Source of the DNA: Flavobacterium covae
GTDB taxonomy: Bacteria; Bacteroidota; Bacteroidia; Flavobacteriales; Flavobacteriaceae
Length of the DNA stretch: 64,000 bases
Reading direction: 5' to 3'
NCBI GenBank assembly: GCA_019565575.1
Contig: CP067379.1
Span: 620,001-684,000, forward strand
Shown here: one piece after another, positions 2,507 through 52,400 of the stretch
Numbering within the stretch: the stretch's first letter is position 1
Layout: every line of letters starts with the position of its first letter
The notes under the pieces: generated by a model
The model's input: the letters and a program-made list of their open reading frames with translations, nothing else
Told to the model about the DNA's origin: nothing
Database searches by the model: none
Position numbers and translations under genes: made by a program

Positions 2507-3235
2507 CTTATAAAATACTACTCCATAATTTCCTCGCACGAGAACTTCAAAAACACCAACAATACAAAGAACTTCAAAGAACACAACAGGTTTTCAACCT
2601 TTTGCAAAGATAATCAATTTTTTATTTTCAATTGAAAAAATAAAAACTTTAGTTGTTGGTGTTGATGGATTGTTGAACTGGAAAAAACTTTTTGCGGTGG
2701 ATTTTCGAGCGGTGGCAAAAGTTTTTCTATTTCAACAATCAACTAAAAACTCAAAAAAATAAATGCTTCTTTTTGGGATTACCTCTTTTCGGGTGGGAAG
2801 CGTTGGCAAAAGGCTAATTACAGGCTGGCTTGCTGTGGCTATTTGCGGAGCGAAAACATAAAATGAATTATAGGGCAAAAAATACCGTTAAAAATCAATA
2901 AACAAATTCGTTTTTTGCCCTATAATGCAAGCGATTTTATGTTAAATAGCTTACCCCATTTTTTTATGGCATAAGTGAGCGGGGGAGTACGGAGCGAACG
3001 GCTTTTTGCCAAAGTTTTTTAGCGTTGGGAACAGCTCTTTTATTTTTTTCAAATACCTTTTTCTTTCAACTGATTTCATTTGAAAAAAATAAATGTGCTG
3101 TGGTGCGTTGGCAAAAAACTTTCGCAAAAAGTATGACAGAAAAAAATGGGGGCACAGCAAGACAAGTCTGTAATTGCCTTTGTGCGTTGGCGGGTGGGTT
3201 ATTAAATCAATCCCAAAAAAGAAGCATTTATTTTT
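2507..3235. repeat. Gene-free terminal region of element A, nested inverted repeats
   Basis: About 730 bases hold no convincing gene but many paired inverted repeats. Outer arms lie at 2753-2780 and 3209-3237 (sharing ATAAATGCTTC), inner arms at 2812-2838 and 3151-3177 (sharing TTGCTGTG), and a hairpin at 2857-2941 whose stem is ATTATAGGGCAAAAAA (2867-2882) with its complement at 2911-2926. Further left, an ACACCAACAA block near 2549 faces TTGTTGGTGT near 2654. The region adjoins the integration end. It may be an origin, a folded recombination substrate or a structured RNA. Short frames in it (for example 3025-3261) are by-products of the palindromes. Confidence 0.7.
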
Positions 3236-4126
3236 TTACCTTATTGGATGGTAATTATTAACTGCATTTTGCAATTGCTCCAGTTCGGTTTGTTTGTATT
3301 GGATGGTGGTGGAGGCTCGTCTGTGTCCGCTAAATACTTGAACTATTCTTGTATCATTCTCCTTTTTCAATAAGTTTGCAATTACAGATTGACGGATTTT
3401 CATTGGTTGTATTTGTTCCTGTTTTGGTTTTTGTTCGTTTATCATTTTACTGATTCCATGTGCATTTATTTTTTCTCCGTATTGTCCTAAAATAAAGATG
3501 CTGCTTTCTTGTTTATTGTTGTATTTCAGTAGTTTAATTCTATCTTTTTCTAAATAATTATAGATTAATAAAATTTGTTTTGCATTGAGTGGCAAGGTTC
3601 TACTTTGTGGACTTTTTGAAGTGATTTCTAGACTTCCTTTGATGTAGATTTCGCATTTTTCTAAATTGATGTTTTCAACTTCTAATTCTGCTATTTCTTT
3701 GACGGTTAAGGCTTGATAAATGAGTAAGCTTATAATTACTTTGTTTCTGTTTTCTAAATATTTTTTCTTTCTGATTTGATAGGTTTCAAAGAATTTTTCT
3801 AATGTTTCTGGGCTGTAAAATGTATCAACTTGTATTTGTCTATCTATTTTATCTTTTAAAAATAATTCACTGCAAGGATGATCCTTTCTTTGTCCTGTTT
3901 CAAGTAGATAATTGAAGTATATTTTTACTCCATACAAGCAATGTCGTAATGTTTTTGGACTTAAATCGTAATTCTTTCGTAAGTGTTCAATGTAATTTAA
4001 AACGTCTTTAAATGTGGCTAATTTGGCTTTATTTCCGTAGTAATCTGTAAATCGTTTTATTAAAAATAAGTTGCTGTAAAGTGTGCTTTTGCTGTATTTC
4101 TTTTCTAAATATTCATTGATGGTCAT
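3236..4126 (-). CDS. Tyrosine recombinase RecB of element A, lacks Arg I
   Basis: I start the gene at MTINEYLEKKYSKSTLY (ATG 4124-4126), matching the start of homologues in families B and C and overlapping the upstream recombinase stop by 14 bases. The frame could begin at 4183. It has an N-terminal SAM-like core-binding domain and a C-terminal catalytic domain. The second Arg (MKIRQSVIANLL) and the GHRRASTTIQYK box with His and the Tyr nucleophile are present, but the box that normally carries the first catalytic Arg reads LLIYQALTVKEI. The His of the HxxR motif is replaced by Lys. It is probably a catalytically impaired partner of the neighbouring recombinase. Confidence 0.8.
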   Translation of the reverse strand: MTINEYLEKKYSKSTLYSNLFLIKRFTDYYGNKAKLATFKDVLNYIEHLRKNYDLSPKTLRHCLYGVKIYFNYLLETGQRKDHPCSELFLKDKIDRQIQVDTFYSPETLEKFFETYQIRKKKYLENRNKVIISLLIYQALTVKEIAELEVENINLEKCEIYIKGSLEITSKSPQSRTLPLNAKQILLIYNYLEKDRIKLLKYNNKQESSIFILGQYGEKINAHGISKMINEQKPKQEQIQPMKIRQSVIANLLKKENDTRIVQVFSGHRRASTTIQYKQTELEQLQNAVNNYHPIR

Positions 4127-5042
4127 TATATAAGTTATTAATCTGATTTTGTGATATATGCGTATAAATTTCTGTTGATTCAATATGACTATGTCCTAAA
4201 AATTTCTGAACCTGTTCGAGCTTCATTCCGTTTTGTAGTAAATGTGTTGCTATTGAATGCCTTAAACTATGTATTCCTATTCTGTTTAATTCTTCAAACT
4301 TTAGTTTTTTACCAAATTCTGTTTTTAATAGTAGTTTCTTAAAGTGCTTATTTATAGTGTCATCACTCATTCTTCTTGCTTTATTATTTATTAAAAACTC
4401 ATTAGTTTTATGTTTTAAACTTTCTAAATATTCATTGAGTTCATTAGTAATTTTATCGGTTAGCGGTACCAACCGCCGTTTACTGTTTTTACCTTTTTGA
4501 ACAATGACTAAATTTTCTATAATTCTAATATCTTCTTTGTTTAAATCACTGATTTCTTGCACTCTTAACCCACAACCATACGCAATATTTAAAATAGTTT
4601 TTTCTTGTAAATTCGCTACTTTGTAGAGTTCTTGTATTTGGTCCTGGTTAAAAATAAATCGTTCTACTTTTTCATTGATTGGAGTAAATTTTAAATGTGA
4701 TGCTGGACTGCTTTTTATAACTCCTAATTCTAATAAATACCCTAAATATTGTTGAAGATTTCGCATATTATCATAAATAGATTTCTGCTTTAATTTTTGT
4801 TTAGTTCTTTGACTGATTTTTTCTTTTAGATAGTTGTTGTAGTTTGCTATTTCTTTTGGTGTAACTTCTTTTATATCAAATATTTTCAAATTCTCTAACC
4901 AACTAAAAAACTCCTTCAGATATAAATATCTTGCTTGGGTTGTTTCGGGATTTAATCCTAAAATGTCTAAATGTTTTTTGTAGTTTATGGCTTCTGTTTG
5001 GTAGTATTCTGTATAGATTTTGTGTTTACTTGGAGCACCCAT
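4113..5042 (-). CDS. Tyrosine recombinase RecA of element A (active-type, XerC/D-like)
   Basis: This 309-residue integrase has a full catalytic set: Arg I in YGCGLRVQEISDL, a Lys loop (VQKGKNSKRRLVPL), the HxxR box IHSLRHSIATHLL, and LGHSHIESTEIYTH with the conserved His and nucleophilic Tyr. It has a normal N-terminal SAM-like domain. It is the upstream gene of a two-gene recombinase operon and most likely does the strand cleavage for integration at the V-D-P-L codons. The name RecA here means first recombinase, not the homologous recombination protein. Confidence 0.9.
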   Translation of the reverse strand: MGAPSKHKIYTEYYQTEAINYKKHLDILGLNPETTQARYLYLKEFFSWLENLKIFDIKEVTPKEIANYNNYLKEKISQRTKQKLKQKSIYDNMRNLQQYLGYLLELGVIKSSPASHLKFTPINEKVERFIFNQDQIQELYKVANLQEKTILNIAYGCGLRVQEISDLNKEDIRIIENLVIVQKGKNSKRRLVPLTDKITNELNEYLESLKHKTNEFLINNKARRMSDDTINKHFKKLLLKTEFGKKLKFEELNRIGIHSLRHSIATHLLQNGMKLEQVQKFLGHSHIESTEIYTHISQNQINNLYNDHQ

Positions 5043-5098
5043 ACTTATGATGTTTTTAAGGTTTATGATGCTTTTGCTTACTCAATATTTTATTTTTT

Positions 5099-5187
5099 GG
5101 GTCGCTAGATTTTTATTTTCTGATTATCAGTAATTTATATTTATTTTATTGATTTGTAGTGACCCATTAGCGAACCATTAGTGACCC
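5099..5187. repeat. 11-bp iteron cluster of element A, copy 1
   Basis: Three contiguous 11-bp direct repeats lie at 5155-5165 (TGTAGTGACCC), 5166-5176 (ATTAGCGAACC) and 5177-5187 (ATTAGTGACCC). A fourth copy in inverse orientation is at 5099-5109 (GGGTCGCTAGA). The 330 bases between the primase and recombinase genes hold nothing else I recognise, apart from T-rich sequence and a possible imperfect stem around 5260-5330. The same arrangement, with a different sequence, occurs in family B, which suggests a binding site for the element's replication protein. Confidence 0.65.
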
Positions 5188-5371
5188 TTTGCGGTTCATA
5201 CTTTGTTTTTTAAACTTTGTATTTGTTCATTTGCTTTTGTTTGTTTTTTATAGGTATTCACGAATCGAAGTTTTTTATTGGATTTAATTATTTTTTAGTT
5301 CTTCGATTTGATTCATTAAAAAGTTTTTTATTTATTCATTCGTTTTTATTGTTTTTTAAAGGAGTTCATGA

Positions 5372-7666
5372 ATCAAGGATTTATTTTTAAAGATTGTATT
5401 TGGTTCATTAGAAAATCCTTGATTTCAGCTCTTAATTTCTGATGATTATCCCAATACGTAATTTTATATTTAATTCCTTTATTGTTGTAACCTCCTGATT
5501 GTTTGATGTATTCTAATTCTAAAAGTGTATTTATGTAGCGTTGTAATTGTGTTTTAGAGATGTTTAATTCTTGTCTTATTTCTCGTTGTAAAAAATCTTG
5601 ATTTTCGTTTTTAACGTACTTTTTAGTCGTTCAAAAAACTGTCTTAAACTTCCATCTAATTCATCTACTTTTAAAATAATACTTTCAAAAAGTACTTCGG
5701 TAGCTTGTTCGATATCTTCTATTTCTGTTATTAATTGGTTGTTGTTGGTTAGTTTTCTCTGATACTGATTTAAAAAAGTTACTTGTTTGATTACCGCTTG
5801 ATACATTTCGTTTAATCGTCTTATTTTGTGGACTTTTTCGGGTAAATGTAATTGTGTTGCATACGGATTAATGACTTCATATACTTTTAAATTCCTTACT
5901 ATACTTTGTATAAATCCTATTGCTTTTTGACTTTCGTTTGGATCTATTTCGCCTGCGTTGCGTTTGTTTTGGTATTCGATTATTCTTGCGGTTTGTTCCT
6001 TGCTTTCATCAACTGCTATTAAAAAACTTCTGCTCATATTATCTTCGTAAGTTTCGCCTTTGGTGGTGGCTGATAAACTGGAGAACTGACCTTTTACTAT
6101 TTTATGACTGCTTTTATTATTTCCTTTTTTGTCTTTAATCGTTACCGAACTTCTTAATACTTGATTGCTTATAAATTCTCGTAAAGCATATAAAGCATCT
6201 TCTTTTAAACCGTCTAAATCTTCAATAATTACTACCTTTTGGAATAAATCAAACTCTCCCCAATTGTATAAACTACTCTCTGTAATTCGTGTAAATCTCA
6301 ATACATCTTCTTGTGGCATTAAATCTGCTATTCTACTGATTATATGAGTCTTTCCGCTTCCGCTACTTCCTTGTACTAGTGCGTGTAATGGGTTTTTATT
6401 TAAGTAACTGATAATAATTAAAAAGAGTAACATTCGGGCGTTTTCTTCGCCAACAATTCCAGATTTTCCGATTAATTCATTTAAATTTTTAATTAAATGT
6501 GAGCGTTTTAAAAAATCTATGGCGTTGCTTGGTTTCTCTTCCTGTTCACTGCGTGGATTTTCTTTTTCAGATGAAAAAATAAATGGTTGTCTTTTGTCTA
6601 AAAGCTCTGTAAATATTTCCTCATTATGAGCTTGTAAAGTTTCGTTGATGTCTTTGTTTATGGGTTCTAACACACTTATTTTTATTCTTGGTATTTGCCT
6701 CCCTTTGGTCGGCGAATCTCCGATTTCTTCCTGTAATAGTTTACCATATTTTAAAATGGCTTCTTTCCCTGCTGTATCATTGTCAAAAGCAAAGATGATT
6801 TCTTCTAGTTGTTTGAGTTCTTTAATTGCATTTAATATTTCTTCATTGAGTCCATTGGTGCCAAAACAAGCAATTAAACTATAATTCTCTGCAATATTTT
6901 TTATCTGAAGTAACGAAGCTGCATCAATTATACTTTCCGTTAAAATCAGTTTTTTAGTGTTTACATTGGGATAATTGGGATAAATTCCTTGCCTGTCTTT
7001 TAAATAAAAATGCTTTGCGTTTTCATTATTTAAAGTTGAACGAAAATATAAACTAACAATTTGATTTTCTTTGTTTTTCAATGCAAAACAAATACACCAT
7101 TTGCCAAAAACTCCGTAGGCTTTCTCTCCAGTTCTGCCTAAAATATTTTTATCAATTAGTAATCCATATTCTAAACATTGAGCAATTACATTTTCATCTT
7201 TCCTTGCTCCGTGGTGGAACTGACCAGCATTATAACCGATTTCTATTTTCTTAAAATCTAAACTTCTACTTTCTAAATATTCCTTTGCAGGTTTAGAGTT
7301 ATGCACCGCATTTTTAAAATATTGGTACATATTGGCTAAAAAATTTTCTCGGCTTAAATTCGGTTGATAGCGTTCATTATTACTTGGTTCTTGATGTCCC
7401 AGTATTTCCTTTGCTTTATTTATCGCTTCTGCTTTGGTGCAATTTTCTTTGTACAATATAAAATCTATTACATCCATTGCTTTACCGTGGGTTTTACAAT
7501 TACTACTAAAACAGTATGCAGTTTGTGTTTTGTAATATACTTGAAAACTTGGTGTTTTATCTTCGTGGAACGGACAATTTAAACGGCTTTGTTTGTCGGT
7601 TTTATAACCGTAATAGTGCAATACGTTGGCGATTGTGAGCTGTTGTTTTATCTCTGATATTTCCAT
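5372..7666 (-). pseudogene. CHC2-Toprim-ATPase replication protein of element A, frameshifted copy
   Basis: Domain order is clear. A CHC2 zinc finger (residues 1-90; CPFHEDKTPSF, CFSSNCKTHG) is followed by a Toprim domain (KKLILTESIIDAASLL, IIFAFDNDTAGKEA) and a P-loop ATPase with Walker A GSSGSGKTH and Walker B VVIIEDLDG. The end is a winged-helix segment (REIRQELNISKTQLQRY). The first two domains are those of DnaG-type primases and the ATPase suggests a helicase-like role. The frame runs from ATG 7664-7666 and breaks near 5620, where a T run is one base shorter than in the second copy. The last 80 residues are therefore in another frame. A consensus error is more likely than real loss. Confidence 0.85.
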
Positions 7667-7831
7667 TGTTGAAACTTTTTTAAAATATTTTTATTAACCG
7701 TTTTCGGTGCAAAGATACCGAATGAGTTTTATATGACAAAATTTTAACGATTTTAATTAACCGTTTTAGTTTCATATATTTGCAATATCAATTAAAACAA
7801 GGGTATTTATTAACCTTTTAAGTATTATATT
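7667..7831 (+). promoter_or_regulatory. Divergent promoter/operator between primase and XRE genes, element A1
   Basis: A TATATTTG box at 7775-7782 fits the Bacteroidota -7 consensus TAnnTTTG for the XRE gene. The 11-mer TTAACCGTTTT occurs at 7694-7704 and 7757-7767, and a related TTAACCTTTT at 7810-7819. The copies flank and overlap the promoter. They are good candidates for operator sites of the XRE protein, controlling both itself and the divergent replication and recombination operon. Confidence 0.6.
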
Positions 7832-8173
7832 ATGGTGACTTTTGGTAAAAGATTAAGAGAAGCAAGAGACAGCAAAGGCTTATCGCAACAAGATTTAGCA
7901 AAGCTAATCGGTAGCGTACATACTGTGATTGGTAGATATGAAAGGGATGAGATGAAGCCTTCGATTGATGTAGTAAAAAAATTGGCTGATGAATTAGGTA
8001 CAACCGTTGGCTACTTAATTGGCGAAGCCAAAGAAGCTCAGTTTTTAAAAGACCCTACAATGTTAAAGAGATTTCAAGAGATTGACGAACTTACAGAAAA
8101 AGACAAAGAATGTGTCTTTTCTTTACTTGATGCCTACCTTGCTAAAAGTAAATTACAAGCCTTTTTAAAATAA
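7832..8173 (+). CDS. XRE-family repressor of element A
   Basis: This 113-residue protein has an N-terminal Cro/C1-type helix-turn-helix (GKRLREARDSKGLSQQDLAKLIGSVHTVIGRYERDEMKPS, residues 5-45) and a short helical C-terminal part, probably for dimerisation. It is the only gene of the unit on the plus strand and is divergent from the primase gene, the usual layout of a lysogeny-type switch. It probably represses the replication/recombination operon and itself through the TTAACCGTTTT sites. Both copies in the window encode the same protein. Confidence 0.85.
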   Translation: MVTFGKRLREARDSKGLSQQDLAKLIGSVHTVIGRYERDEMKPSIDVVKKLADELGTTVGYLIGEAKEAQFLKDPTMLKRFQEIDELTEKDKECVFSLLDAYLAKSKLQAFLK

Positions 8174-8202
8174 CAAACCCCGCTTTTGCGGGGTTTGTTA
8201 TT
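8169..8202 (+). terminator. Terminator of XRE gene, element A1
   Basis: A long hairpin with stem AATAACAAACCCCGC and loop TTTT is followed by T-rich sequence and contains the XRE stop codon. It lies between convergent genes (XRE and the immunity gene stop at 8213), so it probably works in both directions. Confidence 0.85.
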
Positions 8203-8212
8203 TATAATGCTA

Positions 8213-8593
8213 TTAATAATTTTTTAATTCCTCACTTAAATCTCTTGCAAATTCATCTAAATCAACAACAAAACCAGATTTGCCATTTACAGGAAATACA
8301 TCTATTAAATAGTTTTTAGATGCAATTAAGTCAAATATCTCATCTTCTAAATCGTCAAGAGTCAATTTTTTAGGAGTACATTCTTTCCATCCTTCCTCAA
8401 GATTAGAATTAATAAACTCTTTAGCAGACCAAAATGATATCAAAGTTTTATCGTCAATGTCAGACAAAGCATAATCTCCATTAACATCAACAATAGTCCA
8501 AAGCTCCTCGTAATCTGCAACTTTTTTAATAAAGTACTTATATCTTTCTATTGGTTGCAATACAGACACATTCTTAATTTCTTTAGCATTCAT
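8213..8593 (-). CDS. DUF2750-type immunity protein of tip A
   Basis: The 126-residue protein resembles the DUF2750 family: YEELWTIVDVNGDYALSD, then FWSAKEFINSNLEEGWKECTPKKL, and a C-terminal VNGKSGFVVDLDEFARDLSEEL. It has no signal peptide, so it acts in the cytoplasm. DUF2750-like proteins are found next to polymorphic toxins. The gene starts three bases after the stop of tip A, which supports a toxin-immunity pair. This copy is intact; the second copy carries a frameshift. Confidence 0.75.
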   Translation of the reverse strand: MNAKEIKNVSVLQPIERYKYFIKKVADYEELWTIVDVNGDYALSDIDDKTLISFWSAKEFINSNLEEGWKECTPKKLTLDDLEDEIFDLIASKNYLIDVFPVNGKSGFVVDLDEFARDLSEELKNY

Positions 8594-8596
8594 AAA

Positions 8597-9349
8597 TTAA
8601 TCATTTAAAGGTCTTTCTTTATTTTTTCTACCTCCATTATCATATTTATGTTGCCTTCTATGTAAATCTCTGTCTTGTAAGTTTGAATTTTTATATGAAT
8701 ACCCTTTTGCTGCCTCTCGACCTCTCTCGTGTGCCAAATCTTTTCCAGGAGGATTACGGATTGATTTCCTATTACCTCTCTCTATTTGATTCATTTCTGA
8801 TTTTATCCATCCTTTATCAGCTTTACCTAATTTAGGATCTGTAGCCAATTCTACTAATCTCTCTTGTTTTCCTGCTCTACCTGCCTTTAAAAGTGATTTA
8901 GCATTATCTGCAGATTTTACTGCATCGATAGCATTTTCAATAATATTAATATCTTTTTAATCTTACCTACTTTTGCTAAATCCCCTGCATAAGGAATAAC
9001 ACCAACAGCACTGATAGCTGCACTAAAATAATCTCCATCATCAAAAGCCATTTTTGCACCGACAGCATCGGATATTCCTGTGGGGTCAAAAATTCCCACT
9101 ATATCTAATCCAGCACTTAAAATATCTTTTCCGCTTAATGAATAATTCCCTCCAAAATCAACACCTAAACTACTTGCATTAACTTTTATATCAATTAAAT
9201 CAGTTTTTAATGTTACACTGGAGTTATTTTTACCAAGTATGACTATATCAGTTGGAGCCATTCCATCTTCATCAACAAAACGAATAGGATTATTGAAAGA
9301 AAAACTATAAGGCGACCACTCCGGGAACTCTTCGGCCAGCGGGTCCACA
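8597..9349 (-). pseudogene. Displaced RHS tip A, type-8-like toxin, frameshifted copy
   Basis: The tip begins at the seam with [10 protein letters not shown] and the RHS end motif [17 protein letters not shown] linker with a hydrophobic segment ([20 protein letters not shown]) follows. The C-terminal domain holds PPGKDLAHERGREAAKGYSY and LQDRDLHRRQHKYDNGGRKN, which resembles polymorphic toxin type 8 (Ntox8). That assignment is from memory of the family pattern. A T run near 8956 is one base short compared with the second copy and breaks the frame. No start codon or promoter is attached; the tip is cut off from the RHS core by the second element copy. Confidence 0.75.
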
Positions 9350-10076
9350 CTTATAAAATACTACTCCATAATTTCCTCGCACGAGAACTTCAAAAACACC
9401 AACAATACAAAGAACTTCAAAGAACACAACAGGTTTTCAACCTTTTGCAAAGATAATCAATTTTTATTTTCAATTGAAAAAATAAAAACTTTAGTTGTTG
9501 GTGTTGATGGATTGTTGAACTGGAAAAAACTTTTTGCGGTGGATTTTCGAGCGGTGGCAAAAGTTTTTCTATTTCAACAATCAACTAAAAACTCAAAAAA
9601 ATAAATGCTTCTTTTTGGGATTACCTCTTTTCGGGTGGGAAGCGTTGGCAAAAGGCTAATTACAGGCTGGCTTGCTGTGGCTATTTGCGGAGCGAAAACA
9701 TAAAATGAATTATAGGGCAAAAAATACCGTTAAAAATCAATAAACAAATTCGTTTTTTGCCCTATAATGCAAGCGATTTTATGTTAAATAGCTTACCCCA
9801 TTTTTTTATGGCATAAGTGAGCGGGGAGTACGGAGCGAACGGCTTTTTGCCAAAGTTTTTTAGCGTTGGGAACAGCTCTTTTATTTTTTTCAAATACCTT
9901 TTTCTTTCAACTGATTTCATTTGAAAAAAATAAATGTGCTGTGGTGCGTTGGCAAAAAACTTTCGCAAAAAGTATGACAGAAAAAAATGGGGGCACAGCA
10001 AGACAAGTCTGTAATTGCCTTTGTGCGTTGGCGGGTGGGTTATTAAATCAATCCCAAAAAAGAAGCATTTATTTTT
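9350..10076. repeat. Gene-free terminal region of element A, copy 2
   Basis: This is the duplicate of the hairpin-rich region of copy 1. The main hairpin (stem ATTATAGGGCAAAAAA) spans 9698-9782. It differs from the first copy by two homopolymer lengths (a T run near 9460 and a G run near 9823). I see no gene. Confidence 0.7.
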
Positions 10077-10967
10077 TTACCTTATTGGATGGTAATTATT
10101 AACTGCATTTTGCAATTGCTCCAGTTCGGTTTGTTTGTATTGGATGGTGGTGGAGGCTCGTCTGTGTCCGCTAAATACTTGAACTATTCTTGTATCATTC
10201 TCCTTTTTCAATAAGTTTGCAATTACAGATTGACGGATTTTCATTGGTTGTATTTGTTCCTGTTTTGGTTTTTGTTCGTTTATCATTTTACTGATTCCAT
10301 GTGCATTTATTTTTTCTCCGTATTGTCCTAAAATAAAGATGCTGCTTTCTTGTTTATTGTTGTATTTCAGTAGTTTAATTCTATCTTTTTCTAAATAATT
10401 ATAGATTAATAAAATTTGTTTTGCATTGAGTGGCAAGGTTCTACTTTGTGGACTTTTTGAAGTGATTTCTAGACTTCCTTTGATGTAGATTTCGCATTTT
10501 TCTAAATTGATGTTTTCAACTTCTAATTCTGCTATTTCTTTGACGGTTAAGGCTTGATAAATGAGTAAGCTTATAATTACTTTGTTTCTGTTTTCTAAAT
10601 ATTTTTTCTTTCTGATTTGATAGGTTTCAAAGAATTTTTCTAATGTTTCTGGGCTGTAAAATGTATCAACTTGTATTTGTCTATCTATTTTATCTTTTAA
10701 AAATAATTCACTGCAAGGATGATCCTTTCTTTGTCCTGTTTCAAGTAGATAATTGAAGTATATTTTTACTCCATACAAGCAATGTCGTAATGTTTTTGGA
10801 CTTAAATCGTAATTCTTTCGTAAGTGTTCAATGTAATTTAAAACGTCTTTAAATGTGGCTAATTTGGCTTTATTTCCGTAGTAATCTGTAAATCGTTTTA
10901 TTAAAAATAAGTTGCTGTAAAGTGTGCTTTTGCTGTATTTCTTTTCTAAATATTCATTGATGGTCAT
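10077..10967 (-). CDS. Tyrosine recombinase RecB of element A, copy 2
   Basis: The protein is identical to that of copy 1, including the LLIYQALTVKEI segment without Arg I and the intact GHRRASTTIQYK box. Start placed at MTINEYLEKKY as in copy 1, overlapping the RecA stop by 14 bases. Confidence 0.8.
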   Translation of the reverse strand: MTINEYLEKKYSKSTLYSNLFLIKRFTDYYGNKAKLATFKDVLNYIEHLRKNYDLSPKTLRHCLYGVKIYFNYLLETGQRKDHPCSELFLKDKIDRQIQVDTFYSPETLEKFFETYQIRKKKYLENRNKVIISLLIYQALTVKEIAELEVENINLEKCEIYIKGSLEITSKSPQSRTLPLNAKQILLIYNYLEKDRIKLLKYNNKQESSIFILGQYGEKINAHGISKMINEQKPKQEQIQPMKIRQSVIANLLKKENDTRIVQVFSGHRRASTTIQYKQTELEQLQNAVNNYHPIR

Positions 10968-11883
10968 TATATAAGTTATTAATCTGATTTTGTGATATAT
11001 GCGTATAAATTTCTGTTGATTCAATATGACTATGTCCTAAAAATTTCTGAACCTGTTCGAGCTTCATTCCGTTTTGTAGTAAATGTGTTGCTATTGAATG
11101 CCTTAAACTATGTATTCCTATTCTGTTTAATTCTTCAAACTTTAGTTTTTTACCAAATTCTGTTTTTAATAGTAGTTTCTTAAAGTGCTTATTTATAGTG
11201 TCATCACTCATTCTTCTTGCTTTATTATTTATTAAAAACTCATTAGTTTTATGTTTTAAACTTTCTAAATATTCATTGAGTTCATTAGTAATTTTATCGG
11301 TTAGCGGTACCAACCGCCGTTTACTGTTTTTACCTTTTTGAACAATGACTAAATTTTCTATAATTCTAATATCTTCTTTGTTTAAATCACTGATTTCTTG
11401 CACTCTTAACCCACAACCATACGCAATATTTAAAATAGTTTTTTCTTGTAAATTCGCTACTTTGTAGAGTTCTTGTATTTGGTCCTGGTTAAAAATAAAT
11501 CGTTCTACTTTTTCATTGATTGGAGTAAATTTTAAATGTGATGCTGGACTGCTTTTTATAACTCCTAATTCTAATAAATACCCTAAATATTGTTGAAGAT
11601 TTCGCATATTATCATAAATAGATTTCTGCTTTAATTTTTGTTTAGTTCTTTGACTGATTTTTTCTTTTAGATAGTTGTTGTAGTTTGCTATTTCTTTTGG
11701 TGTAACTTCTTTTATATCAAATATTTTCAAATTCTCTAACCAACTAAAAAACTCCTTCAGATATAAATATCTTGCTTGGGTTGTTTCGGGATTTAATCCT
11801 AAAATGTCTAAATGTTTTTTGTAGTTTATGGCTTCTGTTTGGTAGTATTCTGTATAGATTTTGTGTTTACTTGGAGCACCCAT
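10954..11883 (-). CDS. Tyrosine recombinase RecA of element A, copy 2
   Basis: The protein is identical to copy 1, with all catalytic boxes (YGCGLRVQE, HSLRHSIATH, LGHSHIESTEIYTH). Both copies being intact argues that the family was active recently or that the duplication is very young. Confidence 0.9.
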   Translation of the reverse strand: MGAPSKHKIYTEYYQTEAINYKKHLDILGLNPETTQARYLYLKEFFSWLENLKIFDIKEVTPKEIANYNNYLKEKISQRTKQKLKQKSIYDNMRNLQQYLGYLLELGVIKSSPASHLKFTPINEKVERFIFNQDQIQELYKVANLQEKTILNIAYGCGLRVQEISDLNKEDIRIIENLVIVQKGKNSKRRLVPLTDKITNELNEYLESLKHKTNEFLINNKARRMSDDTINKHFKKLLLKTEFGKKLKFEELNRIGIHSLRHSIATHLLQNGMKLEQVQKFLGHSHIESTEIYTHISQNQINNLYNDHQ

Positions 11884-11939
11884 ACTTATGATGTTTTTAA
11901 GGTTTATGATGCTTTTGCTTACTCAATATTTTATTTTTT

Positions 11940-12028
11940 GGGTCGCTAGATTTTTATTTTCTGATTATCAGTAATTTATATTTATTTTATTGATTTGTAG
12001 TGACCCATTAGCGAACCATTAGTGACCC
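11940..12028. repeat. 11-bp iteron cluster of element A, copy 2
   Basis: Three contiguous 11-bp repeats run from 11996 to 12028 with an inverted copy near 11940, unchanged from copy 1. The rest of the 330-base gap between the recombinase and primase genes shows nothing else I can name. Confidence 0.65.
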
Positions 12029-12213
12029 TTTGCGGTTCATACTTTGTTTTTTAAACTTTGTATTTGTTCATTTGCTTTTGTTTGTTTTTTATAGGTATTC
12101 ACGAATCGAAGTTTTTTATTGGATTTAATTATTTTTTAGTTCTTCGATTTGATTCATTAAAAAGTTTTTTATTTATTCATTCGTTTTTATTGTTTTTTAA
12201 AGGAGTTCATGAA

Positions 12214-14509
12214 TCAAGGATTTATTTTTAAAGATTGTATTTGGTTCATTAGAAAATCCTTGATTTCAGCTCTTAATTTCTGATGATTATCCCAATACGT
12301 AATTTTATATTTAATTCCTTTATTGTTGTAACCTCCTGATTGTTTGATGTATTCTAATTCTAAAAGTGTATTTATGTAGCGTTGTAATTGTGTTTTAGAG
12401 ATGTTTAATTCTTGTCTTATTTCTCGTTGTAAAAAATCTTGATTTTCGTTTTTAACGTACTTTTTTAGTCGTTCAAAAAACTGTCTTAAACTTCCATCTA
12501 ATTCATCTACTTTTAAAATAATACTTTCAAAAAGTACTTCGGTAGCTTGTTCGATATCTTCTATTTCTGTTATTAATTGGTTGTTGTTGGTTAGTTTTCT
12601 CTGATACTGATTTAAAAAAGTTACTTGTTTGATTACCGCTTGATACATTTCGTTTAATCGTCTTATTTTGTGGACTTTTTCGGGTAAATGTAATTGTGTT
12701 GCATACGGATTAATGACTTCATATACTTTTAAATTCCTTACTATACTTTGTATAAATCCTATTGCTTTTTGACTTTCGTTTGGATCTATTTCGCCTGCGT
12801 TGCGTTTGTTTTGGTATTCGATTATTCTTGCGGTTTGTTCCTTGCTTTCATCAACTGCTATTAAAAAACTTCTGCTCATATTATCTTCGTAAGTTTCGCC
12901 TTTGGTGGTGGCTGATAAACTGGAGAACTGACCTTTTACTATTTTATGACTGCTTTTATTATTTCCTTTTTTGTCTTTAATCGTTACCGAACTTCTTAAT
13001 ACTTGATTGCTTATAAATTCTCGTAAAGCATATAAAGCATCTTCTTTTAAACCGTCTAAATCTTCAATAATTACTACCTTTTGGAATAAATCAAACTCTC
13101 CCCAATTGTATAAACTACTCTCTGTAATTCGTGTAAATCTCAATACATCTTCTTGTGGCATTAAATCTGCTATTCTACTGATTATATGAGTCTTTCCGCT
13201 TCCGCTACTTCCTTGTACTAGTGCGTGTAATGGGTTTTTATTTAAGTAACTGATAATAATTAAAAAGAGTAACATTCGGGCGTTTTCTTCGCCAACAATT
13301 CCAGATTTTCCGATTAATTCATTTAAATTTTTAATTAAATGTGAGCGTTTTAAAAAATCTATGGCGTTGCTTGGTTTCTCTTCCTGTTCACTGCGTGGAT
13401 TTTCTTTTTCAGATGAAAAAATAAATGGTTGTCTTTTGTCTAAAAGCTCTGTAAATATTTCCTCATTATGAGCTTGTAAAGTTTCGTTGATGTCTTTGTT
13501 TATGGGTTCTAACACACTTATTTTTATTCTTGGTATTTGCCTCCCTTTGGTCGGCGAATCTCCGATTTCTTCCTGTAATAGTTTACCATATTTTAAAATG
13601 GCTTCTTTCCCTGCTGTATCATTGTCAAAAGCAAAGATGATTTCTTCTAGTTGTTTGAGTTCTTTAATTGCATTTAATATTTCTTCATTGAGTCCATTGG
13701 TGCCAAAACAAGCAATTAAACTATAATTCTCTGCAATATTTTTTATCTGGAAGTAACGAAGCTGCATCAATTATACTTTCCGTTAAAATCAGTTTTTTAG
13801 TGTTTACATTGGGATAATTGGGATAAATTCCTTGCCTGTCTTTTAAATAAAAATGCTTTGCGTTTTCATTATTTAAAGTTGAACGAAAATATAAACTAAC
13901 AATTTGATTTTCTTTGTTTTTCAATGCAAAACAAATACACCATTTGCCAAAAACTCCGTAGGCTTTCTCTCCAGTTCTGCCTAAAATATTTTTATCAATT
14001 AGTAATCCATATTCTAAACATTGAGCAATTACATTTTCATCTTTCCTTGCTCCGTGGTGGAACTGACCAGCATTATAACCGATTTCTATTTTCTTAAAAT
14101 CTAAACTTCTACTTTCTAAATATTCCTTTGCAGGTTTAGAGTTATGCACCGCATTTTTAAAATATTGGTACATATTGGCTAAAAAATTTTCTCGGCTTAA
14201 ATTCGGTTGATAGCGTTCATTATTACTTGGTTCTTGATGTCCCAGTATTTCCTTTGCTTTATTTATCGCTTCTGCTTTGGTGCAATTTTCTTTGTACAAT
14301 ATAAAATCTATTACATCCATTGCTTTACCGTGGGTTTTACAATTACTACTAAAACAGTATGCAGTTTGTGTTTTGTAATATACTTGAAAACTTGGTGTTT
14401 TATCTTCGTGGAACGGACAATTTAAACGGCTTTGTTTGTCGGTTTTATAACCGTAATAGTGCAATACGTTGGCGATTGTGAGCTGTTGTTTTATCTCTGA
14501 TATTTCCAT
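12214..14509 (-). pseudogene. CHC2-Toprim-ATPase protein of element A, copy 2, frameshifted
   Basis: The gene is the same as in copy 1 but broken elsewhere: at 13747-13753 the plus strand reads CTGGAAG where copy 1 reads CTGAAG. This splits the protein inside the Toprim domain, leaving frames 13721-14509 (CHC2 and half of Toprim) and 12214-13770 (rest of Toprim, ATPase, winged helix). The 3' end, broken in copy 1, is intact here and ends QIQSLKINP. Joining the intact halves of the two copies gives an unbroken protein of about 764 residues. Confidence 0.85.
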
Positions 14510-14674
14510 TGTTGAAACTTTTTTAAAATATTTTTATTAACCGTTTTCGGTGCAAAGATACCGAATGAGTTTTATATGACAAAATTTTAACGATTTTAAT
14601 TAACCGTTTTAGTTTCATATATTTGCAATATCAATTAAAACAAGGGTATTTATTAACCTTTTAAGTATTATATT
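14510..14674 (+). promoter_or_regulatory. Divergent promoter/operator, element A2
   Basis: This region has the same sequence as in copy 1: TATATTTG at 14618-14625 as the -7 box, with TTAACCGTTTT repeats on both sides of the promoter. Confidence 0.6.
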
Positions 14675-15016
14675 ATGGTGACTTTTGGTAAAAGATTAAG
14701 AGAAGCAAGAGACAGCAAAGGCTTATCGCAACAAGATTTAGCAAAGCTAATCGGTAGCGTACATACTGTGATTGGTAGATATGAAAGGGATGAGATGAAG
14801 CCTTCGATTGATGTAGTAAAAAAATTGGCTGATGAATTAGGTACAACCGTTGGCTACTTAATTGGCGAAGCCAAAGAAGCTCAGTTTTTAAAAGACCCTA
14901 CAATGTTAAAGAGATTTCAAGAGATTGACGAACTTACAGAAAAAGACAAAGAATGTGTCTTTTCTTTACTTGATGCCTACCTTGCTAAAAGTAAATTACA
15001 AGCCTTTTTAAAATAA
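14675..15016 (+). CDS. XRE-family repressor of element A, copy 2
   Basis: The 113-residue protein is identical to copy 1 (helix-turn-helix at residues 5-45). With two identical repressor genes, one copy would silence both elements in trans. Confidence 0.85.
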   Translation: MVTFGKRLREARDSKGLSQQDLAKLIGSVHTVIGRYERDEMKPSIDVVKKLADELGTTVGYLIGEAKEAQFLKDPTMLKRFQEIDELTEKDKECVFSLLDAYLAKSKLQAFLK

Positions 15017-15045
15017 CAAACCCCGCTTTTGCGGGGTTTGTTATT
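15012..15045 (+). terminator. Terminator of XRE gene, element A2
   Basis: The hairpin is the same GC-rich stem (ACAAACCCCGC with complement, TTTT loop) as in copy 1, between convergent genes. Confidence 0.85.
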
Positions 15046-15055
15046 TATAATGCTA

Positions 15056-15435
15056 TTAATAATTTTTTAATTCCTCACTTAAATCTCTTGCAAATTCATC
15101 TAAATCAACAACAAAACCAGATTTGCCATTTACAGGAAATACATCTATTAAATAGTTTTTAGATGCAATTAAGTCAAATATCTCATCTTCTAAATCGTCA
15201 AGAGTCAATTTTTAGGAGTACATTCTTTCCATCCTTCCTCAAGATTAGAATTAATAAACTCTTTAGCAGACCAAAATGATATCAAAGTTTTATCGTCAAT
15301 GTCAGACAAAGCATAATCTCCATTAACATCAACAATAGTCCAAAGCTCCTCGTAATCTGCAACTTTTTTAATAAAGTACTTATATCTTTCTATTGGTTGC
15401 AATACAGACACATTCTTAATTTCTTTAGCATTCAT
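15056..15435 (-). pseudogene. DUF2750-type immunity gene of tip A, copy 2, frameshifted
   Basis: The first 75 residues match copy 1, then a T run near 15208-15213 is one base shorter and the frame stops after ECTPKN at 15205. The remaining codons to 15056 are still present in another frame. The partner tip in this copy is intact, so a real loss of immunity would only be tolerated because the tip is silent. A homopolymer error is equally possible. Confidence 0.7.
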
Positions 15436-15438
15436 AAA

Positions 15439-16344
15439 TTAATCATTTAAAGGTCTTTCTTTATTTTTTCTACCTCCATTATCATATTTATGTTGCCTTC
15501 TATGTAAATCTCTGTCTTGTAAGTTTGAATTTTTATATGAATACCCTTTTGCTGCCTCTCGACCTCTCTCGTGTGCCAAATCTTTTCCAGGAGGATTACG
15601 GATTGATTTCCTATTACCTCTCTCTATTTGATTCATTTCTGATTTTATCCATCCTTTATCAGCTTTACCTAATTTAGGATCTGTAGCCAATTCTACTAAT
15701 CTCTCTTGTTTTCCTGCTCTACCTGCCTTTAAAAGTGATTTAGCATTATCTGCAGATTTTACTGCATCGATAGCATTTTCAATAATATTAATATCTTTTT
15801 TAATCTTACCTACTTTTGCTAAATCCCCTGCATAAGGAATAACACCAACAGCACTGATAGCTGCACTAAAATAATCTCCATCATCAAAAGCCATTTTTGC
15901 ACCGACAGCATCGGATATTCCTGTGGGGTCAAAAATTCCCACTATATCTAATCCAGCACTTAAAATATCTTTTCCGCTTAATGAATAATTCCCTCCAAAA
16001 TCAACACCTAAACTACTTGCATTAACTTTTATATCAATTAAATCAGTTTTTAATGTTACACTGGAGTTATTTTTACCAAGTATGACTATATCAGTTGGAG
16101 CCATTCCATCTTCATCAACAAAACGAATAGGATTATTGAAAGAAAAACTATAAGGCGACCACTCCGGGAACTCTTCGGCCAGCGGGTCCACAGCAAAAAA
16201 CCTTCCCACACGTGGATCATGCATCCTAAAAGTATAATTCAAAGAATTCCCTTCCCCTTTTAATTCATCATCTTTTTCTTGCCCTTGGAAGCCATAACGG
16301 TAGCTATCACTACTACCGTGGCGGTTTGGAATGAGCGAACCAAA
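15439..16344 (-). CDS. Displaced RHS tip A with stranded core segment (type-8-like toxin)
   Basis: The frame is open from the family B seam (FGSLIPNRHGSSDSYRYGF) through [24 protein letters not shown] to the intact tip and ends KERPLND. Residues encoded by 16193-16344 are RHS core left between the two attachment sites, so they belong to the host gene and not to element A. The C-terminal PPGKDLAHERGREAAKGYSY/LQDRDLHRRQHKYD domain is whole here, so this is the best copy of the toxin. Type-8 polymorphic toxins are thought to be nucleases, but I cannot confirm the fold. The frame lacks a start or promoter, since element B lies between it and the core. Confidence 0.75.
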   Translation of the reverse strand, partial: FGSLIPNRHGSSDSYRYGFQGQEKDDELKGEGNSLNYTFRMHDPRVGRFFAVDPLAEEFPEWSPYSFSFNNPIRFVDEDGMAPTDIVILGKNNSSVTLKTDLIDIKVNASSLGVDFGGNYSLSGKDILSAGLDIVGIFDPTGISDAVGAKMAFDDGDYFSAAISAVGVIPYAGDLAKVGKIKKDINIIENAIDAVKSADNAKSLLKAGRAGKQERLVELATDPKLGKADKGWIKSEMNQIERGNRKSIRNPPGKDLAHERGREAAKGYSYKNSNLQDRDLHRRQHKYDNGGRKNKERPLND

Positions 16345-19123: not shown

Positions 19124-19169
19124 TGTTTTATAATTTATTTTTTACAGAACTTACTTTGATTGGGCAACT

Positions 19170-34926: not shown

Positions 34927-34986
34927 TTCATGACATTTTGATAATCAAATGTACAAATTTTGTTCCATATTTTTTATTTTATTGGA

Positions 34987-42903: not shown

Positions 42904-43947
42904 TTAATCAAATTTAGCTTCTTTAGTTACATTCGTATTTGAGGTTGTATTAGATACACCATTTTCAATTTTATTTCCTGAACCAATTCCAGCATCGACC
43001 CCAATAGATTGATTAACAGTCCCAGTTGTTATATTGCCTTCAAATTCATATGTCACATGAAAAGGCATACCTGGAATTTTACCACTTGCTGTAGATTTAA
43101 CTTTGTTTTCATTTACAAATTTAGAAGGTTCAAAAGGATTTGTCGTGTTTAATTTTGCAATAAATTGTAAAGTCGGTGTTGGTACATAATTAGAAATGTT
43201 AAATCCATCAGTACTTAATTTTCCATTAATTGCAAATTCATTTGTATTATAAAAACCAGCTGAATTTTCAGAAGAACTATAAATCCCTACTTGAGATTCC
43301 CATGAATATTTATTAAATTCAAATCCAATTTTAATTCCAGTATTAGAAGATTTAAACAATTTATCACTTTCTATCGAGTGTATCCAATCACTAGCTCGAT
43401 ACAAATTGTCTGTTACATATTCTTCCCATTTTTCTTCGAATGTATGTTCGTTAATAACTTTCACACCCGAAGAACCTATTGTAAACTCTCCAAAATTATC
43501 CATATAGTTTTTCCCAAAACTATCTACTACTGAACCATCAGCATTTAATTGAAATGTATTCATCCATTGACCGTTTGAGGTTTGTTGATTTAAAACAACA
43601 ACATCTCCTTTATAAGTTCCTTTATCTCCAACATCCGCCTGAGATTTCACATTTTTATCATACACATAGTTTCCATATTTATTTTTATACCAATCAAACG
43701 GGCCCTTTCCATTAGGGTCAATAAAATATATTGGATTATTCAAAGTATAATTATAAGTTGAATAACTTGGATACTGTCCTTCTAATTTATCAGGAGCAAA
43801 CCATCTTCCTACTCTCGGGTCTAACATCCTCGCCCCAAAATCATAGCTATTCCCCTCACCCTTTAACTCATCATCCTTCTCCATACCGTTAAATCCATAT
43901 CTGTAAGAATCAGTTGAACCGTGGCGGTTTGGAATGAGCGAGCCAAA
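42904..43947 (-). CDS. Displaced RHS tip C, unknown toxin (fragment without start)
   Basis: The frame is open from the seam: FGSLIPNRHGSTDSYRYGFN, then MLDPRVGRWFAPDKLEG and NYTLNNPIYFIDPNGKGPFD, the RHS end motif. About 260 tip residues follow that I cannot assign. They are rich in Asn, Ser, Thr and Phe with alternating strands (GIKIGFEFNKYSWESQVGIY, TPTLQFIAKLN, FHVTYEFEGNITTGTVNQ) and no Cys-His cluster or HExxH. A beta-rich, possibly membrane- or surface-acting domain is conceivable. The sequence equals the tip now fused to the core. Confidence 0.7.
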   Translation of the reverse strand, partial: FGSLIPNRHGSTDSYRYGFNGMEKDDELKGEGNSYDFGARMLDPRVGRWFAPDKLEGQYPSYSTYNYTLNNPIYFIDPNGKGPFDWYKNKYGNYVYDKNVKSQADVGDKGTYKGDVVVLNQQTSNGQWMNTFQLNADGSVVDSFGKNYMDNFGEFTIGSSGVKVINEHTFEEKWEEYVTDNLYRASDWIHSIESDKLFKSSNTGIKIGFEFNKYSWESQVGIYSSSENSAGFYNTNEFAINGKLSTDGFNISNYVPTPTLQFIAKLNTTNPFEPSKFVNENKVKSTASGKIPGMPFHVTYEFEGNITTGTVNQSIGVDAGIGSGNKIENGVSNTTSNTNVTKEAKFD

Positions 43948-44890
43948 AGGGTAATACTTTATGCGTTTTTTGCTAGGGTAACCACTACTTTGGGTATCTC
44001 TTTTCTGGCAAAACCGTTAAAAATTTTTTTTCCGCTTGCCTTATCCTTACACTTCTACTTTTTTAAGAACGTATGCCTTTTGGGCATTTCAAATATATAA
44101 AAATCCGTTTATTTATCCCTATTCTTTGGCAGGTATTCAATGACTTTTGAGTGTTTACCTAATCTTTACAGGTGCTTTAGTGATGTGGTGCTCGATTTTT
44201 TTGGAAGAAAGCCAAAAAATAAAGCTTCATTTTTAAGAAAAAGCCTCTTTGGCTTTCTTCTAAAAAAATGAGCAAACAACCGAAGGGCGTTAGTATCCGG
44301 TTCTACAATAAACACCCCCAAGCACCGCAGGGAAGTAAAAAAGGCGTTATGCGTTTAGTGATATAAAAAAGCCTTTTTACTTACCGAGGAGCGATGTGGC
44401 GGTGTTGCGGCAATGCATCGAAGCCTGCGACACACAATGCGGACGAGGAGGCACGACGAGGAGCAATGTGGCGCAGTGTGCTGGAAGCATAGCCCTGAAG
44501 CGTAACGAAGTGAAGCAAATCTAATCGGCTGTAGCTTTGCTACACCTTGCAGGGCGTACTGAGGATGCAGGGAGCAACCGCCATATTAACAAGGGGCGAC
44601 AGATGCAAAGACGGCAAAACGTAGCTTGCGGAGTTTTTGCGGTCTTGCAGATGTAGTAGCCCCGACGACCGATGGAAGTGAACGTGTGAAGACGAGGACA
44701 AGTGAACCAGGGTTTTTAATGGCTCTTTTTTCGGAGCGATTAAAAACCCTAGTGAGCTTGTGGACTGTGGAACGGAGAGAGGCACGAGCGACTGGAACAG
44801 CCGAGCGGAACTAAGAGAACGACCGGAGGGAGACCGCTTGATGGCTTCTACAGTGTCTGTAAGGTTAAATTTTAACTAGTATTTTTGGAT
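43948..44890. repeat. Gene-free terminal region of element C, copy 2
   Basis: It repeats the GC-rich hairpin region of copy 1 with no difference that I noticed. The three hairpins recur at about 44204-44260, 44334-44381 and 44709-44750. Confidence 0.7.
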
Positions 44891-49453: not shown

Positions 49454-49458
49454 AATAT

Positions 49459-52400
49459 TTAATCAAATTTAGCTTCTTTAGTTACATTCGTATTTGAGGT
49501 TGTATTAGATACACCATTTTCAATTTTATTTCCTGAACCAATTCCAGCATCGACCCCAATAGATTGATTAACAGTCCCAGTTGTTATATTGCCTTCAAAT
49601 TCATATGTCACATGAAAAGGCATACCTGGAATTTTACCACTTGCTGTAGATTTAACTTTGTTTTCATTTACAAATTTAGAAGGTTCAAAAGGATTTGTCG
49701 TGTTTAATTTTGCAATAAATTGTAAAGTCGGTGTTGGTACATAATTAGAAATGTTAAATCCATCAGTACTTAATTTTCCATTAATTGCAAATTCATTTGT
49801 ATTATAAAAACCAGCTGAATTTTCAGAAGAACTATAAATCCCTACTTGAGATTCCCATGAATATTTATTAAATTCAAATCCAATTTTAATTCCAGTATTA
49901 GAAGATTTAAACAATTTATCACTTTCTATCGAGTGTATCCAATCACTAGCTCGATACAAATTGTCTGTTACATATTCTTCCCATTTTTCTTCGAATGTAT
50001 GTTCGTTAATAACTTTCACACCCGAAGAACCTATTGTAAACTCTCCAAAATTATCCATATAGTTTTTCCCAAAACTATCTACTACTGAACCATCAGCATT
50101 TAATTGAAATGTATTCATCCATTGACCGTTTGAGGTTTGTTGATTTAAAACAACAACATCTCCTTTATAAGTTCCTTTATCTCCAACATCCGCCTGAGAT
50201 TTCACATTTTTATCATACACATAGTTTCCATATTTATTTTTATACCAATCAAACGGGCCCTTTCCATTAGGGTCAATAAAATATATTGGATTATTCAAAG
50301 TATAATTATAAGTTGAATAACTTGGATACTGTCCTTCTAATTTATCAGGAGCAAACCATCTTCCTACTCTCGGGTCTAACATCCTCGCCCCAAAATCATA
50401 GCTATTCCCCTCACCCTTTAACTCATCATCCTTCTCCATACCGTTAAATCCATATCTGTAAGAATCAGTTGAACCGTGGCGGTTTGGAATGAGCGAGCCA
50501 AAAGGGTAATAGTCATTGTATGAAATTATCTCTGGTAAATATTTTGAACCCTCGCCTAAATTATAGTCAATAGGTCTATCTGAAATTACATTCAATACAT
50601 TTCCTAAATGATTTGATAATTCATAGCGTTTATCACCTACAACCGATTTGTATTCAAATTGAGCCATTGGTAAAATTGCATCAAAATATTTACGATCAGC
50701 GTCCAAATAATTAGGTATATTATCACTATTTGTATCTGCAGTATAGGCAAGACCTGGAGTTGAATTTGGTTTTCCTGGCCCTCCTTCTACTATTTCCCAA
50801 GTTTTATAACCATCGCCATCATCATCATCATCTAAATAATTTGGTAATGTATTAGTCAATGCCTGACTATTATTTGGATGTGGGTCTGCATTTGTGTTCA
50901 AAGCAGGTACCCCTGTTACAGGGTTGTGATCATTATCAGTATCCGCACTTTCGTATTTAGTTAGTATCCCATCCCCATCATCGTCTGGATCTAAATGGTT
51001 TACGATACCATCTTTATCAACATCTATTGTGATGTTTGGAACTGAATATTCATAAATGTCATACAAACCATCTTTGTCAGAATCAGACATACAGCTACCA
51101 AGTTCTCTCACTACGGCAGGAGTTACTGTCATGGCTATACTATGCGTAGTGGTTTTTGGTGCATTGTTAGTAATAGTACTACTTGTCACATCATCAAAGG
51201 TAAAACTATGTGATACAACATTGTTGTACCATGTACTTAAATTATAATTGAAATAACAACTAGCAAAATCTAATGGTTTTAAATTATCAAATACACCTCC
51301 TAGTTGGAAATTATTAGTTGTTGGTACTGATTTTACCACTGTCTCATTACCAAAGTAAGGTTGCAAGGCTGTATCCATTCCATTTACTTGGATGTATCCA
51401 TCAAAATTTTTGAAATTAACATTAGTCTTAACCTCTAATCCATCAGTAACTATTGTCGTAGGTGCTGAAACTGCTTCATACGATTTTCTTGTTATAGGAG
51501 AACCTATAGTTGAAGATTTTGTTTTGTAAATATCAATTTTTACTTTGTGTTTAAAACCTTGGTTGTCTTTTATTAAAGATAATTTAGCATCATTAGTTAT
51601 TTCATAAACTTCTTTGATATCTTTCTCTACCATTAGATCATATATGTGACAGCCTGACCAAAACCAATTACCGAGTTTTGAACTTGGAAGGTTGACTTTT
51701 AAGTTAATTGGACCATTTGAAACTGGTCTTGGTTTACTAGCAATTGTTATATTATCGACTTTGAATATAATTTCATTAGATGTTACTTGAAGTTTAAAAT
51801 TTGTGCCTGTATACGCTTTTTTATCTATAATATTATTTTCGCTAATTATATTATAGTTATCAACATTCAAATTAAAACCGTATTCTTTTCCATCTACATC
51901 TAATGTCAATGTTCCATTATTTCTTAAAATGTTATAATCACTTACTTTAAACGACACAACACCTGTTTCTGTAGGATTTAAAACAGCAGATTGAGTACCT
52001 AAATAATTATCTTTACAATTAGAGTTAAAATAGTTCCAAGTACCAATGTTTAATGATTTATAATTATTATAACTGGTTAGACCTACACATATTGGAACAT
52101 TAAATGAACTAGCTAGAGCGCTTAAAGATATTAACTCTTTAATATACCTAATTTCTTGTGATTTAAATAGCAATTGAGCTAAACCATATTCTCCATCTAT
52201 AATATTGGTATCTGATAAATTATATTTAGTATCAAATCCAAAAGTGTTTAAATTTTGATTTGTGAATGATTGAAGTTCACTTGGTAATAAATTCCAATTA
52301 GCACTAGTTGTTGATGATAATTTCAGGGCATAATTAGGTACTATTCCTAAGCTTGCTACATCAATAGCAGGTAAAACATCATCAATGACTTTAGTAGCAG

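Follow-up and report, generated by a model that had tools for sequence, protein, structure and literature searches.

The 64,000-nucleotide window of Flavobacterium covae analysed here (contig CP067379.1, positions 620,001 to 684,000) harbors an RHS polymorphic toxin gene, whose core is separated from an older C-terminal tip by a tandem array of six units on the minus strand. These units are very probably integrative elements residing at fixed RHS codons, and each likely enters as a circle through its own recombinase, which would replace the toxin tip. They appear to represent a new and widespread family of integrative elements, and their insertion is likely to exchange the C-terminus of a polymorphic toxin. 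An initial annotation of the same DNA had proposed that insertion joins an incoming tip to the core and displaces its predecessor downstream, and this interpretation is supported by relatives in other genomes, by the junctions, and by the occurrence of one element type in two RHS genes.

The six-unit array between the RHS core and the old tip, first noted in the initial annotation, is real and is constructed from three element types, termed C, B and A, with two copies of each. The copies are spaced by 6,556 bp (C, 99.89% identity), 10.5 kb (B, 99.61%) and 6,843 bp (A, 99.85%). As had been described, the units contain an XRE gene, a primase and/or an AAA+-like ATPase, two tyrosine recombinases (rec1 and rec2) and a gene-poor end, with variation by type; the recombinase pair is encoded in all six, rec2 of unit B1 being fragmented. 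The open frame reported across position 50502 was also recovered, as a single open reading frame (ORF, 49459-53475) crosses this first seam, where TTTGG starts at 50502. The YYPFG core TATTACCCTTTTGG starts at 50511, 43956 and 37400 at the seams of C, and its B variant TACCCCTTTGG is found at 26875 and 16350. The A seams were located at the VDPLAE codons, with TGT[G/T]GACCC at 16192, 9349 and 2506, about 150 bases downstream of the YYPFG site; the B1/B2 and A seams were read by eye. Thus, the claim that all units end at the same RHS codons holds for C and B (YYPFG) but not for A (VDPLAE). An RHS stretch spanning the YPFG to the VDPLAE site precedes A1, downstream of B, and because this inter-site stretch sits between B and A1, the order of insertion was A into an RHS gene with tip 7, followed by B upstream of it and then by C. 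The array continues past tip 7 with pieces of C-like units and another end-plus-core at C1:618651, just outside the window. Decayed C-like layers, comprising XRE pieces, an end plus core and RHS tip fragments, were observed there (G000:C1:616206-619257, L218), and therefore the array is deeper than six units.

The search for the recombinase pair beside RHS genes in other flavobacteria, which the initial annotation had suggested, was conducted with rec1 and gave 414 confirmed matches, of which the best 80 were kept, corresponding to 66 distinct loci in 56 assemblies with 56-87% identity to the query. Twenty-four genera are named in the record titles of these 66 best-scoring loci, mostly Flavobacteriaceae and including Arenibacter, Aquimarina, Tenacibaculum, Polaribacter, Kordia, Flavivirga, Winogradskyella and Flavobacterium; the Saccharicrinis and Oleispira titles belong to metagenome bins and may be misassigned. 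With the own genome counted each time, C-type rec1 (E <= 1e-60) is present in 16 of 397 family genomes, C-type elements in five of 348 genus genomes (among them G570), and A-type recombinases in seven of the 348. An RHS tip frame lies on at least one side in 54 of the 66 loci, and the other 12 consist of nine contigs too short to tell and three large versions that were resolved from whole genomes. Where at least 4.6 kb of left flank was available, an RHS tip was found upstream in 32 of 39 loci, and 36 of the 45 loci with that much right flank have one within 4.6 kb downstream; this stricter tally replaces an earlier one (38/45 upstream and 42/50 downstream, within 5 kb), in which short-flanked loci were counted only when matched. 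The seven upstream misses (L117, L119, L127, L135, L137, L139 and L141) form one clade (support 1.0), and all but L119 were traced in their genomes to a position between two same-strand RHS frames 32-68 kb apart. The nine downstream misses are these seven, L131 (with its RHS tip at 4,645 bases) and L114. Seams and element ends coincide within a few bases in the relatives; elements at unrelated sites or without a tip, and seams away from element ends, which would have spoken against the initial annotation, were not found among the closest relatives.

Two further arrays were observed during this survey. In a closed genome of the same genus (L204-L206, G639:C1:728001-780000), C-like elements surround RHS tips in either orientation and are separated by repeated insertion-sequence-like genes, an arrangement that suggests later inversions of an array. 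Another locus (L164, G401:C2:1-13000) contains seven RHS tip frames, 1.7-2.1 kb apart, that have YYPFG cores and an RHS-like core-side sequence (TEIIEESNYYPFG), and no recombinase match was obtained between these seven frames, which may be orphans of homologous recombination or cassettes moved in trans.

The same element has also been recovered at more than one target. A second RHS gene, 1 Mb away in the same genome, carries two copies of a fourth element, D, which has A-type recombinases, together with a single A copy, which shares 99.8% identity with those of the window over 6.86 kb; the identity stops at the core on both sides. Similarly, two RHS genes of G389 contain one element within a 7,890 bp stretch of 99.91% identity, of which only the left edge is informative as one copy runs to the contig end, and in G242 one and the same element end adjoins a different tip on each of two contigs. 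Beside the second RHS array of the window genome (L021 1-11074, G000:C1:1650001-1661074), two rRNA operons stand in direct tandem with 99.3% identity, containing small-subunit, tRNA, large-subunit and 5S genes; this arrangement is real or an assembly effect.

The chassis is conserved, and the tips are diverse. All fetched loci together yielded 183 RHS tip frames (146 distinct sequences, some loci being present twice), which fall into 121 clusters, in contrast with the conserved recombinases that accompany them. A core-fused tip is followed by displaced tips with core fragments, which is the layout of an Rhs orphan-tip array. Furthermore, displaced tips match core-fused tips of other genomes at 35-55% identity in eight rows, equal to five distinct relations, which include window tip A and G402.

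Beyond the closest relatives, an ATPase search detected distant chassis in 22 of 299 family genomes, the own genome counted. In G079, G036 and G152, the distant chassis adjoins RHS-like frames, and G142 and G211 possess RHS frames with chassis remnants; G146 and a pair of short contigs gave no clear context. A chassis doublet (99.9% identity, 8.5 kb) was observed in a non-RHS toxin scaffold of the closed genome G220 (L249-L250, G220:C1:814001-850000), with seams at ELVNAGG or ELANG codons (positions 9372, 17906 and 26444) and an element end that gives the displaced tip a start resembling a signal peptide. In G051 (L252, L253), the chassis follows frames that were read by us as Asp-rich repeats with peptidoglycan-enzyme-like tips, accompanied by a lipoprotein-like gene; the one frame scanned there had no Pfam match, and the sequence points to a possible third delivery scaffold.

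Some phages and islands repair the 3' end of the gene they enter, as e14 does in icd. An alternative explanation is accordingly that a selfish element uses the conserved RHS gene as a safe harbour, where the replacement 3' end only spares the host gene and the change of tip is a by-product. This is improbable, despite being consistent with the frame that usually continues through the seam where a core-fused tip is seen (in 42 of the 183 redundant tip frames, 150 or more residues of open frame precede the site). It would also suit the large version in G400 (L172-L174, G400:C17), which has mobility and restriction genes unrelated to toxins, namely a coupling protein of a type IV secretion system, a relaxase and restriction-modification genes, in addition to a second whole RHS-like gene. 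G400 and five similar loci constitute the large versions, which measure 32-68 kb, use the same site and lie between RHS frames. However, a repair end is expected to be constant, yet the 146 distinct tips in 121 clusters are borne by recombinases 56-87% identical to the query, and distant relatives of the chassis adjoin other toxin scaffolds. Integrative elements that replace the tip are therefore preferred. It is slightly more probable than not that this reading extends to a superfamily of toxin-tip cassettes under their own recombinases, the clades of which would target three RHS codon runs and at least two non-RHS scaffolds, in a reversible and possibly conjugative manner with the tips archived.

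The position of the exchange was narrowed by a comparison of the host-side, middle and far junctions in eight tandem arrays, to which L104, L116, L126, L085, L122 and G570 were added later; in L085 and L122 both sequences compared are element ends, which place no limit on the host side. Host-side and middle junctions last differ at core position 9 in three of the eight arrays and earlier in five; middle and far junctions first differ at position 15 or 16 in six of them and further on in one. In the added arrays, the last host-middle difference was found at position 9 (L104), at position 5 (L126) or before the core (L116), and in G570 the exchange is bounded after position 9 and before 12. These comparisons therefore place the exchange within about CCNTTTGG. 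The element ends constitute a short direct repeat at a fixed target, and their consensus, built from 37 ends (AAAAAAACGCATAAAC before TATCC), does not resemble the consensus of 20 host sides. Across the 66 loci (975 kb), all 81 occurrences of the 14-base core pattern lie on the rec1 strand of the element and none on the other, a count in which some sites appear twice as a few loci overlap; the expectation was 0.0 on average in ten first-order Markov simulations per locus.

Three RHS sites are used, two in the window and a third in relatives, and the rec1 clade tracks which of them is chosen. The site 3 group comprises rec1 of L136, L138, L140 and L142 as well as the more diverged L134; these form one clade (support 0.938) among the recombinases of YPFG-site users, and in L138 and L140 the identity starts at TACACAGGTAATTA or a close variant, at YTGNYVY codons well upstream of YPFG. 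Seven A-type loci were found outside this genome, six of which have [IV]DPLAE-type residues at the tip edge (residues being read here, not DNA junctions); in the seventh, G450, the printed residues stop just short of that position.

The same junctions bear on RecA-dependent homologous recombination between conserved core stretches, which would displace tips with the recombinase genes as passengers. Tips and core have about 75 conserved residues in common past the seam, which could serve such a route, RHS-only tip arrays like L164 may have arisen by it, and in the available part of their article Jackson et al. (2009, PMC2935791) proposed homologous recombination for enterobacteria. Nevertheless, where the tips of a pair are unlike, host side and element end are identical over a short run of about 9-20 bases that invariably lies at the same codons, the breakpoints are not scattered across the shared stretch, and the recombinase clade tracks the site, all of which make this route very unlikely.

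Doublets at unit spacing were found in 14 of the 66 loci, and in addition a C-type pair is present in the closed genome G570 (99.4% identity, 42 mismatches); in short-read assemblies a doublet could reflect an assembly-graph loop, that is, a circle beside an integrated copy. Many core and unit frames are broken in the present assembly, and the breaks differ between the copies of a pair, which fits an indel-rich assembly and may also indicate decay. That the array, or at least its doubling, is a long-read assembly artefact might be argued from these broken frames and from an assembly in a single contig that is 88.4% complete and 5.7% contaminated, but the same architecture in other public genomes and the doublets with 42-64 mismatches in G570, G017 and L109 largely refute an artefact as the source of the architecture and leave this the least credible explanation of all.

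Under the interpretation of site-specific integration, a circle would enter the RHS gene by its own tyrosine recombinase, whereby the new tip is fused in frame and the old tip is moved downstream. The strands would be exchanged within the interval given above by rec1, which matches PF00589 and keeps its R, K, HxxR, H and Y positions throughout 26 distinct sequences. The degenerate rec2 might act as a partner or a directionality factor, which is a guess from its sequence. The MCM-like ATPase, whose fold match derives from the model of a relative (pLDDT, a per-residue model confidence, of 74.7), would replicate the excised circle together with the primase, and the XRE protein would repress the element. 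In the circle, the element end (...AAAAAACGCATAAAC) would meet the start of the tip at the core. A circle that integrates at the core-proximal site would create a new fusion, integration beside a resident copy would give the common doublets, and excision of the youngest unit would restore an older tip; we infer the circle, its excision, the integration reaction and the switching in living cells from these comparisons. Relaxase or conjugation genes were absent from the 19 window proteins scanned; the large G400 version, with its relaxase and coupling protein, may be mobilisable. The rec1 relatives in the viral_contigs set reach up to 39% identity at 17 loci, identity is below 60% in all 456 phage records, and it is likewise below 60% among the best 5000 plasmid records (best row 35.9%).

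Several observations weigh against this interpretation. Neither a circular contig nor an empty site or excision product was detected, and the 35 short-contig entries checked (30 distinct contigs) showed no clean terminal overlap. The doubling in the window may stem from assembly error. Rec2 is devoid of the first catalytic arginine and of the HxxR histidine, and the ATPase model is of poor confidence at about residues 170-290. Among the relatives, L119 is an upstream miss outside the six placed between RHS frames, L114 lacks an RHS fragment in the 10 kb downstream of it, L109 has middle and far junctions that differ as early as position 9, and the element end of L134 looks unlike that of the other site-3 loci and may lie elsewhere. 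Moreover, the site labels compared with the rec1 tree were set by us from the junctions, and 24 of its 86 sequences are unlabelled.

The features of the array are collected in Table 1. In addition, a short terminator-like repeat (CCCTAACATTTTACTGCTAGGGCTTTTTTATAACC) recurs in each B unit, with about four occurrences, and a single occurrence of a similar repeat was observed in each C unit (24600-25395, 35123-35917, 42340-42426 and 48895-48981).

Table 1. Features of the RHS array in window coordinates
Feature	Position	Strand	Remarks
RHS core gene	50503..63972	-	several overlapping frames; upstream part beyond window; weak RHS_repeat match
RHS core ORFs	49459-53475, 53445-53774, 53731-58332, 58373-60136, 60199-61074, 61081-61794, 61797-62729, 62677-63972
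attL of C1	50498..50511	-	core TATTACCCTTTTGG, YYPFG codons; RHS core fused in frame with tip C
Unit C1	43948..50502	-	ends in gene-free stretch
C1 tip C			3' end of ORF 49459-53475
C1 genes			probable immunity 49028-49453; XRE 48494-48838 (+); ATPase 46934-48343; rec1 45660-46694; rec2 44891-45760
C/C seam	43943..43956	-	core TATTACCCTTTTGG
Unit C2	37392..43947	-	99.89% identity to C1; ATPase frame broken
C2 genes			tip 42904-43884; probable immunity 42473-42898; rec1 39104-40138; rec2 38335-39204
C/B seam	37387..37400	-	core TATTACCCTTTTGG
Unit B1	26870..37391	-
B1 genes			tip B (Peptidase_M91) 36436-37101; probable immunity 35952-36458; insertion sequence transposase 33066-34214; XRE 32523-32936 (+); primase part 31533-32333; ATPase 29775-30953; rec1 28741-29646; rec2 pieces 28328-28723, 27855-28301
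B/B seam	26865..26875	-	core TACCCCTTTGG
Unit B2	16345..26869	-	99.6% identity to B1
B2 genes			tip 25914-26579; XRE 22002-22415 (+); rec1 18098-19123; rec2 17329-18198
B/older RHS seam	16340..16350	-	core TACCCCTTTGG
Older RHS stretch, YPFG to VDPLAE	16193..16339	-	left downstream of B; ORF 15439-16242
Unit A1	9350..16192	-	tip A (Ntox8) within ORF 15439-16242
A1 genes			XRE 14675-15016 (+); primase/ATPase 13721-14509, 12214-13770; rec1 10954-11883; rec2 10077-11024
Unit A2	2507..9349	-	99.85% identity to A1
A2 genes			DUF2750 probable immunity 8213-8593; XRE 7832-8173 (+); primase-ATPase 5576-7666; rec1 4113-5042; rec2 3236-4183
A/tip 7 seam	2498..2506	-	TGTTGACCC, site 2 (VDPLAE codons)
Further site-2 seams	9341-9349, 16184-16192	-
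Displaced tip 7	1313..2497 region	-	1819-2412 plus preceding frame; HEIRH motif (our reading); probable immunity 1313-1819

If the superfamily reading is true, the polymorphic toxins of flavobacteria would be re-armed in a site-specific manner, and the shelved tips would form a retrievable archive. The elements would supply a concrete enzyme, a site and a DNA intermediate for the open question of tip exchange, and could explain ordered orphan-tip arrays as well as the decoupled histories of tips and cores. Tens of loci have been marked where the arsenal of a strain might be readable as layers.

No report of Rhs tips borne by recombinases was found in the literature searched, the reach of which excluded subscription papers and most preprints, and several known systems share part of the present features. 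Integrons build cassette arrays stepwise by tyrosine recombinase chemistry, with the youngest insert at the expressed position and the older ones downstream. The array described here resembles them in its stepwise growth, in the youngest unit next to the expressed position with the older ones shelved, and in the tyrosine recombinase, but each unit brings its own recombinases instead of depending on a single integrase at the head, and insertion makes a protein fusion. With e14 in icd, the elements share a site-specific tyrosine recombinase, a new 3' end for the target gene and tandem accretion; here, in contrast, the 3' end varies between most elements and encodes a toxin-like domain, and the target is a polymorphic toxin gene.

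The Rhs systems of Enterobacteriaceae likewise consist of a conserved core, a variable tip with its immunity gene and displaced orphan tips downstream. For these, the available portion of Jackson et al. (2009, PMC2935791) describes displacement and postulates circular intermediates, and that of Koskiniemi et al. (2014, PMC3967940) explains orphan activation in Salmonella by homologous recombination. In contrast with them as represented in these portions, the tips of the window move together with a pair of tyrosine recombinases, a replication-type ATPase and a repressor, and the junctions span a few bases. Recombinases near immunity genes of polymorphic toxins are also known from polyimmunity loci, where Zhang et al. 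(2012, PMC3482391) noted XerC/D genes and suggested a role in the accumulation of immunity genes; no element with ends inside a toxin gene is described in the accessible part of that article. The rAID clusters of Bacteroidales, according to the excerpts available (PMC12247911), are arrays that combine a predicted recombinase with short orphan immunity genes, and also place a tyrosine recombinase beside interbacterial immunity genes, but the window units carry a tip and two recombinases each, with no immunity array, and are not rAID clusters. Finally, the consulted section of a study of Ornithobacterium (PMC13183296) reports 26 orphan tips of an RHS gene, refers to displacement, and records a tip that also occurs in Bergeyella, where the core is different; these orphan tips may belong to the same system as the elements described here.

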